From positions 1 through 64,000 of the IMG/VR virus record IMGVR_UViG_3300044638_004201: a DNA stretch of 64,000 nt. The stretch is one strand, 5' to 3'. The stretch is from a virus. The translations under genes were made by a program, and so were the position numbers. How positions within the stretch are numbered: position 1 is the stretch's first letter; each line of letters starts with the position of its first letter. Under the pieces are notes generated by a model that did not search any database, had not been told where the DNA came from, and saw only the letters and a program-made list of their open reading frames with translations. Shown here in pieces: positions 1 through 2,827 of the stretch.

Positions 1-214
1 CCACATCAAACATATTGTTCTGAACAATCAACAATAGTTTTTCTATTTCTTCATCTGTTATATCTAAAAGCAATACACCAATATAAGAATTTGCCTCATC
101 GACTGTGGCAAAGGCTTCTAGCCTAGGATCATTCTTTGAGGTGCGACTCATATCCCCTAGAGATGTAGTTCCGTCATCGCCAGTCTTTGTATAAATTCGA
201 GTTAGGTGGACCAT
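1..214 (-). CDS. pduO: PduO-type cob(I)alamin adenosyltransferase, N-terminal part (runs off window)
   Basis: Reading leftward from an ATG at 212-214, the frame is open to the window edge (71 residues). It has the PduO signature order: a short basic start, TKTGDDGTT (the ATP-binding segment near residues 9-17), a VDEAN motif (VDELN in the family) and a helix ending VQNNMFDV (family IQxxLFxxG). PduO enzymes transfer the adenosyl group of ATP to cob(I)alamin to make adenosylcobalamin. Its ATG overlaps the TGA of the 43-residue gene upstream (TGATG), and AGGA lies about 8 bases before it. The operon also encodes an adenosylcobalamin-dependent ribonucleotide reductase, so the likely job is cofactor supply. 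The C-terminal half, including its catalytic residues, is outside the window. Confidence 0.85.
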   Translation of the reverse strand, partial: MVHLTRIYTKTGDDGTTSLGDMSRTSKNDPRLEAFATVDEANSYIGVLLLDITDEEIEKLLLIVQNNMFDV

Positions 215-345
215 CAGTGTCCTGTCATTGAGCGCCAAATATCTACAGTAATTTTGTTGGCTACATACATAGTAATCAAAGTTATTGATAGTTGAAGAAT
301 AATTTCAGCAGAAGTCTTGCTTTTAGTTTTTAACATCAAGGCCAT
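214..345 (-). CDS. 43-residue single-pass membrane protein in the B12/nrdJ operon
   Basis: ATG at 343-345 overlaps the end of the DUF4430-like gene by 10 bases, and the TGA at 214-216 overlaps the ATG of pduO (TGATG). The product has a lysine-rich N-terminus (MALMLKTKSK) and then one hydrophobic stretch (about residues 14-30), so it is a small membrane protein. An alternative in-frame ATG at 334-336 would remove three residues. I do not recognise a family. Its coupling to both neighbours argues that it is translated and acts with them, perhaps as a membrane partner of the DUF4430-like protein; that role is inference. Confidence 0.6.
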   Translation of the reverse strand: MALMLKTKSKTSAEIILQLSITLITMYVANKITVDIWRSMTGH

Positions 346-788
346 TGTAGGTCTCCATTTGTAGAAAATACTAAACCTAAAGAGTCGCCTTCAGATAAAG
401 AAATTTCGTTGATTCCTGTTTGAGCCCAGCCCCACTCGTTAAAAAATGGAAGTAGTTTCTTTTCTTTTACTATGACAGCCCAGTAGGCATCTTCTGGTGG
501 CATAACTTCGCAAGTCTCTACAGATTTATCTGGAAGACCATTAAGTCTACAAATAACAGCATCACCATATTTTTGTGTGCCTTCTGTTATATAGCCAGAG
601 ATTTTTAGCAATTCTAACGCGTTTGTTTCAGCAGAAATATCTATACATTTTTCTACTTTTGTTTCAGCATTGAGAGAACCAAAATCAACATACAAGTTCA
701 CGCAATTACTGTCGGGCTTACTTAAAAAAGACAAACCAATGTAAGTAAAACTAATAATTAAAAAAGACAGTATTAGTTTATTCTTCAC
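336..788 (-). CDS. Membrane-anchored DUF4430-like (transcobalamin-like C-terminal domain) protein
   Basis: 150 residues from a GTG start whose GTGA overlaps the TGA of nrdJ, so translation is coupled to the reductase. The N-terminus is a signal or anchor segment (residues 3-22, hydrophobic, after MKNK). The rest shows the DUF4430 layout: a beta-rich start, an ALELLKISGY helix, EGTQKYGDAVICRLNG, a paired cysteine segment (ICRLNG and ETCEVMPP), DAYWAVIV, and a C-terminal LSEGDSLGLVF strand. Family members of this fold include the C-terminal domain of transcobalamin, a B12 carrier. The resemblance is from motif reading only. Position between the B12-dependent reductase and the B12 adenosyltransferase supports a role in binding or taking up cobalamin at the cell surface (inference). 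No lipobox is seen. Confidence 0.65.
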   Translation of the reverse strand: MKNKLILSFLIISFTYIGLSFLSKPDSNCVNLYVDFGSLNAETKVEKCIDISAETNALELLKISGYITEGTQKYGDAVICRLNGLPDKSVETCEVMPPEDAYWAVIVKEKKLLPFFNEWGWAQTGINEISLSEGDSLGLVFSTNGDLQWP

Positions 789-2827
789 TGGTTTTCCCTA
801 ATAAGTTTCACCTCGCAAGCGTCAGTAGTGCAGTATGCCTCACCGATAGCATCAGCCGCAAGTCCCGCATAAACTCCTGAGAAGTCAATTGGAAAGAGTT
901 TTAGAGTTCCCTCTTCTTCATATTCTTCTTCAGTGATTTGTGTGTATGGCATCTGTGGGTATGTAAAGTTTCCTGATGGAAGGAATGAAACTGTTTTTAG
1001 TTGACCATCGTAAAGATGGAGAACAGTTCCGACTGCGCTTGCTTCCTTTTCAGGGTCAAAGGAGATAGTTACTGAGACAGAGTTATCTGACCAATAGCGT
1101 TGTGCGTATGCTGCTAACGCCATCTTTTCGTAGATTGAGACATCCTTCTCAGCCCTCTTGGACTCAGACTTGATTGGAAAATAGACAACCGATGTAGTGT
1201 TCGGTGATTCCGACGCTGGTTCAACTTTGTAGTTCGCCATCTTAAATAAGGGAAGCATAGGGTCCGAATTAGCAAAGCGAATGGTACGCATAAAATACTT
1301 ACCGCCAGGAGTCCAATGTACGCCAGGACTTTCACCAGCAAGAATGGAAACCGTGCCAGAAGGCTTAATGGTTGTTGTCTTGATAGATTCACGGATTCCG
1401 AGCCATTCTGAATAAGTAGTGTCGTAATACTTAATTGTCTCGTATCCCTTGTCCATCCATTCACGAAGAAGTGGAAGACCACGGTTGTCTGCAAAGTTTG
1501 CTACGCCTGACATTGAAGTTCCAATGCGACGGTTACGCTGCATAATTGCGTTTGTCTCTGCCCAGTGGGTAGGAAGAAGTGTCACGGTTTTTGCGTAAAG
1601 ATAAGCAAACTTAAGAGTGCGCTTGTAATCTTCCAGTGACTCGTGTCGGTTGAGATATGTTTCAACAAGAGTACACATTTCGTAAGACTCAAGTGATTGC
1701 TCAGCGCAAGGGTTATAACCTTCTACACGATAATCTTTATTGTTAGGTGGGTCAACCAAACGTCCATACTGTCTAGAGACATCTAGCCAAATAACTCCAG
1801 GTTCTCCGTTGCGAGCAATACCTTCAACAATAGGGTCAAGGTTTGCGCCAACGTAAGCCTCTACAGAATTGTTAGACATCCAAGCCCAGCCAGGATTTTC
1901 TGGGTCATAAGAGTTACGCTCTGGATAAATCTCTGCGTTCTTCAAGTTCAAAAAGTCTTCGTCATCAATGCGACCAATAAGAAGTTCTGCGGAACGACGA
2001 ACGTTTCCTGATACAACGCAAACGCCAATCATATTTCCAATGTCAGCAATGTCTCTGCGAGTTACTTTCTCTCCCTTGCGACCTGCGAACAACTTAGTAA
2101 TGTGATTGTGTAAACGCTCTAACGGTTGGTGTCCTGCTGCTGTTCCTCCGAAGGTTTTGATTGGGGTGCCTTCTGGACGGACTTCTGAGTAGTCAAATAG
2201 TGGAGTCTTCTGATCTGGTCGTAGGTAAGCATTGATGATGAGTTCGAGGGATTTGACCCAACCTTCTCTGGTATCTGGGACGACATATGTTTCTTCTCCT
2301 TCTGGTTCATAGATTTGGAATTCTTTATCAGCACCCTTGTCATCAAATCCAACACCAACGCCAAGCATTGATGCTTCCATTAAAAATGTAAATGGTTTTG
2401 ATGGGTCTGCCTTACTCATTTCTTTTGTTGAAACAAATGCGCAATTTTGAAGTGCAGCAGAGTTGCGTTGAGTATTAACAATTGGAGTTCCCATAACCCA
2501 TAGACCACGTCCTGGAGGAGACCACTTCAACTCAAACAAACGCTCGAATGCTTCTTTAGCAGAAGCCGCTGCTTTAGTGTCAGACCAAGGAAGACGGTTG
2601 TTCTTAGCGTGTTCCTTCTGTAATGAATACATTCCGTTGATAACACGTTCGCATACATCAACCCAAGTTTCTTTATGTCCATCTTCTTTTAGTCGTGAAT
2701 ATGTTCGTAGAAAAGTAATTTCTCCTACAGAGTTTCCAGCAGCATCACGATAACCAAATGGTGCTTTTTTATTGCGGAAGCCCTCTACGAAATCATCAGA
2801 CAACTTGAAAGAAAATGAAACAGACAT
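785..2827 (-). CDS. nrdJ: Adenosylcobalamin-dependent (class II) ribonucleoside-triphosphate reductase
   Basis: 680 residues, close to the length of monomeric class II enzymes such as that of Lactobacillus leichmannii. It reduces ribonucleotides to deoxyribonucleotides using adenosylcobalamin to generate a thiyl radical. Visible active-site elements: Cys129 (ALQNCAFVST), NPCAEQ with radical Cys374 and Glu376, and Cys385 eleven residues later; Cys129 and Cys385 are the expected redox pair. A C-terminal CTTDAC (Cys666, Cys671) matches the swinging-arm dithiol. GVGVGF and GNVRRSAE segments fit the barrel. AGGGAG lies just upstream of the ATG. The stop overlaps the next gene's GTG (GTGA). No thioredoxin or glutaredoxin partner is seen in the window, so the host presumably supplies the reductant. 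Confidence 0.95.
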   Translation of the reverse strand: MSVSFSFKLSDDFVEGFRNKKAPFGYRDAAGNSVGEITFLRTYSRLKEDGHKETWVDVCERVINGMYSLQKEHAKNNRLPWSDTKAAASAKEAFERLFELKWSPPGRGLWVMGTPIVNTQRNSAALQNCAFVSTKEMSKADPSKPFTFLMEASMLGVGVGFDDKGADKEFQIYEPEGEETYVVPDTREGWVKSLELIINAYLRPDQKTPLFDYSEVRPEGTPIKTFGGTAAGHQPLERLHNHITKLFAGRKGEKVTRRDIADIGNMIGVCVVSGNVRRSAELLIGRIDDEDFLNLKNAEIYPERNSYDPENPGWAWMSNNSVEAYVGANLDPIVEGIARNGEPGVIWLDVSRQYGRLVDPPNNKDYRVEGYNPCAEQSLESYEMCTLVETYLNRHESLEDYKRTLKFAYLYAKTVTLLPTHWAETNAIMQRNRRIGTSMSGVANFADNRGLPLLREWMDKGYETIKYYDTTYSEWLGIRESIKTTTIKPSGTVSILAGESPGVHWTPGGKYFMRTIRFANSDPMLPLFKMANYKVEPASESPNTTSVVYFPIKSESKRAEKDVSIYEKMALAAYAQRYWSDNSVSVTISFDPEKEASAVGTVLHLYDGQLKTVSFLPSGNFTYPQMPYTQITEEEYEEEGTLKLFPIDFSGVYAGLAADAIGEAYCTTDACEVKLIRENQ

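Follow-up and report, generated by a model that had tools for sequence, protein, structure and literature searches.

A small gene found in phages, orf150, forms a conserved unit with two neighbours, one encoding a single-spanning membrane protein of 41-61 aa and the other a PduO-type cob(I)alamin adenosyltransferase, while nrdJ, which encodes a class II ribonucleotide reductase (RNR), is a usual but optional fourth member. We think it probable that orf150 is a host-derived, transcobalamin-beta-like B12 binder, no longer under riboswitch control, that raises the supply of captured corrinoid to PduO and NrdJ. The ability to make B12 is missing from many abundant freshwater actinobacteria, and phages with a class II RNR need adenosylcobalamin (AdoCbl). 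Raised B12 uptake during infection has so far been a guess, and the module described here is a concrete and widespread candidate, in which a membrane partner and an activating enzyme accompany a binder of the transcobalamin type, the three together probably boosting B12 capture for the synthesis of DNA building blocks. Its carriers are freshwater phages, probably with actinobacterial hosts, and the module also points to the likely B12-capture proteins of streamlined actinobacteria.

The window analysed covers positions 1-64000 of a virus record that is 73,789 bases long and opens with four overlapping minus-strand genes that run toward the contig end. The first of these, nrdJ (785..2827), encodes a 680 aa monomeric class II (adenosylcobalamin-dependent) ribonucleoside-triphosphate reductase (PF17975, E=1.3e-28; phrog_367, E=3.9e-138), its TIGR02505 score of 346.8 bits lying above the 340.05 cut-off for monomeric class II RNR (RTPR). 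The orf150 gene (336..788, 150 aa) begins, as the preliminary description had it, within the nrdJ stop codon, its GTG start (788-786) overlapping the TGA (787-785) as GTGA, with a Shine-Dalgarno-like AGGG just upstream. Its end overlaps by 10 nt a reading frame (214..345) for a 43-aa single-TM protein with the C-terminus WRSMTGH. The preliminary description omitted this small membrane protein, which is present as consistently as the other module genes. The stop of the small gene in turn overlaps the pduO ATG as TGATG. Only the N-terminal part of pduO (1..214; PF01923, E=9.9e-21) is encoded before the contig ends, and even this truncated copy scores 75 bits against a cut-off of 24; a near-identical contig (L001) holds a complete PduO of 195 aa. 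The missing half of pduO was absent from the far end of the record, where it would be expected if the genome were circular. Genes that by eye resemble speD (S-adenosylmethionine decarboxylase) lie directly after pduO in L001 (7092-7571) and shortly before orf150 in L019 (7205-7621).

The first relatives of orf150 in viral contigs were 99, 87 and 54% identical to it, and profile searches extended the set to 89 and then 135 stretches. We take orf150 to be a real gene because relatives of near-constant length, at 46-99% identity, are encoded in at least 135 viral loci and because 24 columns, four of them cysteines, are invariant in an alignment of 31 diverse family members. A tblastn search of the INPHARED phages gave no match, and a first scan of genome contigs found no relatives. 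Residues 5-23 form a single hydrophobic segment (mean Kyte-Doolittle 2.09; helix 3-21 in the structural model) and the N-terminus has no lipobox, which suggests a signal anchor; the membrane anchoring originally proposed is thus upheld as a prediction. The original assignment to DUF4430, made by eye, found no such backing from sequence. PF14478 (DUF4430; curated cut-off 23.8 bits) matched neither the window protein nor any of the 31 family members, and a match to this profile was also absent from the genome record. An hhalign comparison with actinobacterial DUF4430-type proteins, of which there were only 6 sequences, gave a probability of 9.9% and an E-value of 0.003. Searches with the single protein against Pfam, PHROGs, NCBIfam and PDB sequences, and sequence-family searches with the family alignment, returned nothing above noise.

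Structure prediction was more informative on the fold. Two AlphaFold2 models were built, one from 31 sequences (pLDDT 83) and one of the 125-residue domain from 30 sequences (pLDDT 89.7, pTM 0.84), and both were compared with the PDB using Foldseek. In the first search, 15 of the first 17 matches were to transcobalamin, intrinsic factor or the DUF4430-type structure 3u7z, which was deposited as a putative metal-binding protein. In the second all of the top 16 were, the next match having a probability of 0.44, and in both searches every match with a probability of at least 0.97 belonged to this group. The E-values are modest (~2e-3) and the TM-scores range from 0.5 to 0.7, with 0.59-0.60 on the isolated transcobalamin beta domain and 0.68 on 3u7z. 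The predicted beta-grasp core therefore matches the C-terminal domain of transcobalamin, as had been suggested from the sequence; given these structural matches and the lack of any DUF4430 profile match, we consider the fold call good and the DUF4430 name not earned. Within the model a short strand (E43-46) and then a second (E50-57) come directly after helix 32-38, which fits a short hairpin. The superfamily glycine after strand 2 is not conserved in the alignment of phage and cellular proteins, and G70, which precedes strand 3, is the same in all phage members and varies across the cellular kin. Full-length transcobalamin and intrinsic factor join an alpha/alpha toroid to the beta domain, whereas the phage protein is one 150-aa domain. 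A fold search of BFVD with the orf150 model gave nothing convincing.

Anchoring the comparison of phage loci on different genes shows where the linkage lies. Among 103 loci, the order nrdJ, orf150, small TM gene, pduO occurs in 73, and the last three genes occur without an adjacent nrdJ in 23, some of which lie on contigs that are incomplete on the nrdJ side. When pduO was the anchor, orf150 lay beside 68 of the 71 phage genes with enough upstream sequence, among the matches listed, whereas with nrdJ as the anchor it lay beside just one of 75 close relatives, again among the matches listed. The tight link is therefore with PduO and not with nrdJ. The tie to the adenosyltransferase that was originally proposed is borne out; of the proposed coupling to nrdJ, the overlapping frames in the window stand, but nrdJ is optional to the module, and a link through nrdJ alone is unsupported by the nrdJ-anchored scan. 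Among the matches listed, the module is missing from most phages whose nrdJ is closely related, so it is not generally needed for a phage class II RNR. Two loci (L034 and L035) carry the module after an nrdJ that differs strongly (28% identity), which suggests that module and nrdJ recombine separately from each other. One locus, L055, has the order pduO, then orf150.

The first cellular relatives came from plasmid records. In Arthrobacter (L111) a lipoprotein-like gene overlaps at its end with an ECF T-A gene, and metH is convergent. The Streptomyces proteins (L112) combine the domain with alpha/alpha-toroid repeats and so have the same two domains as transcobalamin; genes for ECF T, A and S and metE come after them, and a cobalamin riboswitch stands ahead of the Streptomyces SAT1 gene. 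We then scanned 395 actinobacterial genomes of the class to which Aeromicrobium belongs and found an orf150-type domain in 82. Forty loci were read at length, these being the higher-scoring ones and not a random draw from the 82. ECF T/A/S genes are adjacent in 36 of the 40 and many face metH, which is the setting beside cobalamin transporters that the preliminary description had proposed to look for in host homologues. A cobalamin riboswitch is present in 18 of the 40 and lies upstream, on the same strand and within 4.5 kb, in 17; the 25 riboswitch sites observed compare with 1.3 expected if the background is taken, generously, as 10 per 4 Mb. Encoding of the surface protein with CbiO/CbiQ-type ECF genes is thus a feature of the cellular homologues, the phage copies not being beside ECF genes. 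The cellular kin resemble lipoproteins or wall-anchored proteins, and most keep the four cysteines that are invariant in the phage family. Three of eight DUF4430-profile matches in actinobacteria lie within ~3-7 kb of an orf150-family member (L261 in G090, L262 in G236 and L263 in G334), which suggests paired B12 surface proteins, one DUF4430-type and one orf150-type, in line with Burroughs et al.

The three best cellular matches (E 3e-49 to 3e-52; loci L148, L149 and L150) come from genomes G156, G229 and G126, each a single contig of 1.16-1.24 Mb with a local G+C of 41-44% and a rhodopsin, a profile that fits acI/Nanopelagicales-like actinobacteria. All three have the order riboswitch, orf150 homologue, small TM homologue; the AdoCbl/cobalamin riboswitch immediately precedes the orf150 homologue, ~80-115 bases ahead of its matched part. 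In two of the three this is the only cobalamin-class riboswitch; G229 (1.16 Mb) has a second cobalamin/AdoCbl riboswitch (L189, G229:C1:253658-253811) before nrdI-nrdE, which encode a B12-independent class I RNR. The PduO proteins of these genomes are 75-77% identical to the phage PduO. In a tree of the orf150 family the phage proteins form a clade (99/98) that joins the three small-genome proteins (100/98) and sits beside the ECF-linked lipoproteins (98/91). The best reading of this sequence relationship is that phage orf150 shares a lineage with the host-like proteins and would therefore be host-derived. The window and nine other phage loci contain no cobalamin riboswitch.

The three small genomes were also examined for a B12 importer. 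Searches with Pfam models detected neither an ECF S component (PF12822) nor a CbiQ (PF02361) above cut-off nor a BtuC-type FecCD (PF01032), and the ABC matches inspected in ~98% of G156 were branched-chain amino-acid, sugar and FtsE-type ATPases only, with no importer found. A weak CbiQ match in G229 was dropped, as it falls inside an FtsW/RodA-like ORF. PduO is present in G156, G229 and G126, with metH also in G156, but PF12822, PF02361 (over cut-off) and PF01032 reveal no B12 importer in them. Four acI genomes have been reported to carry ECF modules behind cobalamin riboswitches (PMC5301498), so either the module in our genomes is too divergent for the Pfam models or the lineages differ. The importer is the weakest link of the mechanism proposed below, given that neither the Pfam searches nor the inspection of G156 revealed one.

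The small membrane protein deserves attention in this context. Among 98 phage copies the C-terminus is GH in 97, mostly as WRSLTGH, and CNC in one. The three small genomes encode TM proteins of 52-53 aa in the same position after the orf150 homologue (one at L148:7715-7876), ending in WRYWGGHY, WRYWGGHY and WRLWGAC, and these are plainly the counterparts of the phage protein. The tail His is replaced by Cys in two cases, one phage and one cellular. The near-invariant WR...GH tail is probably located outside the membrane. In transcobalamin the axial cobalt ligand comes from the alpha domain. By analogy, and as speculation, the terminal His (or Cys) of the small protein could be a candidate axial cobalt ligand; a cysteine has this role in BtuM (PMC6072759). 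A bolder reading is that orf150 and its small partner make up a minimal pair for B12 uptake or hand-over, not described before, which would need neither BtuCD nor a recognisable ECF transporter. It draws on the cobalamin-class riboswitch standing directly before just the orf150 and small TM homologues in three streamlined genomes where FecCD, CbiQ (over cut-off) and ECF S were not found, and we regard it as unlikely, if worth keeping in mind.

Our preferred reading is that orf150 would be a phage copy of an actinobacterial corrinoid-binding surface protein. Its N-terminal helix would anchor it in the membrane of the infected cell, and the beta-grasp domain, probably disulfide-bonded, would lie outside and capture scarce cobalamin; the N-terminus bears a lysine, so it is predicted to be inside and the domain outside. 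Together with the co-encoded small TM protein, orf150 may then pass corrinoid to the host import route, after which phage PduO would adenosylate the imported cobalamin. The AdoCbl, whose level we infer to be higher during infection, would feed a class II ribonucleotide reductase, namely NrdJ in those phages that encode it, and so supply dNTPs for phage DNA. The AdoCbl riboswitch that would damp the host version when B12 is plentiful is missing from the phage copy, so uptake could stay high during infection.

One alternative concerns the ligand. That orf150 binds cobalamin is suggested by its modelled fold, and the domain could instead bind another soluble ligand or a metal, for example haem or cobalt. 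ECF transporters have many substrates, which would leave room for this, as would the deposition of 3u7z as a putative metal-binding protein and the varied ligands of SLBB domains (PMC1796856). We nonetheless find it rather improbable, as AdoCbl/cobalamin riboswitches precede the cellular homologues and the neighbours, metH or metE, PduO and NrdJ, are all linked to B12. Surface display raises a further alternative, namely that a copy of a B12-uptake protein serves superinfection exclusion or receptor mimicry, blocking or competing for incoming phages. B12 receptors, such as BtuB of E. coli, double as phage receptors, and the phage protein has a host surface protein among its relatives. This would leave unexplained the near-obligate linkage to a cytoplasmic adenosyltransferase (68/71, among the matches listed), the overlapping frames and the frequent nrdJ neighbour, and we hold it to be distinctly improbable. 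A third possibility places the function inside the cell, with orf150 as a membrane-tethered chaperone or regulator that hands corrinoid to PduO and takes no part in external capture. Although the tight linkage to PduO would suit such a role and some transcobalamin-like SLBB domains are intracellular regulators (PMC1796856), the invariant cysteines, the lipoprotein-like or wall-anchored nature of the cellular kin and the lysine-bearing N-terminus all point outward and make it very unlikely. That orf150 is a neutral passenger from a host B12 locus, of no benefit to the phage, is scarcely credible: it shares its lineage with host genes and most close-nrdJ phages live without the module (among the matches listed), but relatives with 46-99% identity are retained in at least 135 contigs, for the most part in a fixed gene order, and the module persists beside divergent nrdJ types as well as where no nrdJ is adjacent.

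The acI actinobacteria lack B12 synthesis (PMC5301498). A study of phages with a class II RNR (RTPR), the same enzyme type as that encoded by the upstream nrdJ, raised the speculation that these phages regulate B12 uptake or enhance it, and in the parts of that paper available to us no uptake gene is named (PMC10547690). Two papers on freshwater actinobacterial phages make no mention of B12, and in the open literature, with subscription journals outside the scope of the search, we found no report of a transcobalamin-like phage protein.

Among known proteins, the transcobalamin C-terminal (beta) domain (PDB 5no0 and 5np4) is the best fold match, with a probability of 1.00, and the isolated human beta domain alone binds cyanocobalamin (PMC5599065). 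Identity to it is ~12-14%, and the phage protein differs in having no alpha/alpha toroid domain, in being predicted to be membrane-anchored and not secreted, and in its four family-specific cysteines. Burroughs et al. (2007) defined a transcobalamin-like SLBB clade, mainly from low-GC Gram-positives, planctomycetes and some archaea, predicted that it scavenges B12 together with CbiO/CbiQ operons and noted paired surface proteins (PMC1796856). With this clade, which includes 3u7z, orf150 has its predicted fold and surface location in common, and the cellular homologues add the ECF CbiO/CbiQ-type context and the Streptomyces toroid fusions; orf150 differs in lacking a DUF4430 profile match, in being phage-borne and in having PduO and a small TM protein, not ECF genes, as its linked partners. 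A further close relative is the actinomycete ECF-associated lipoprotein or wall-anchored protein (Arthrobacter L111, Streptomyces L112), whose kinship plain BLAST detects (E down to 1e-24) and which shares the CR..G.P and AYW motifs and most cysteines with orf150. Those versions, by contrast, are chromosome or plasmid genes beside ECF T/A/S genes, often under a cobalamin riboswitch, with a lipid or wall anchor and in some cases a toroid fusion. The fold clade and the enzymes are therefore known; the novelty lies in the viral module, which is widespread, and in its small partner.
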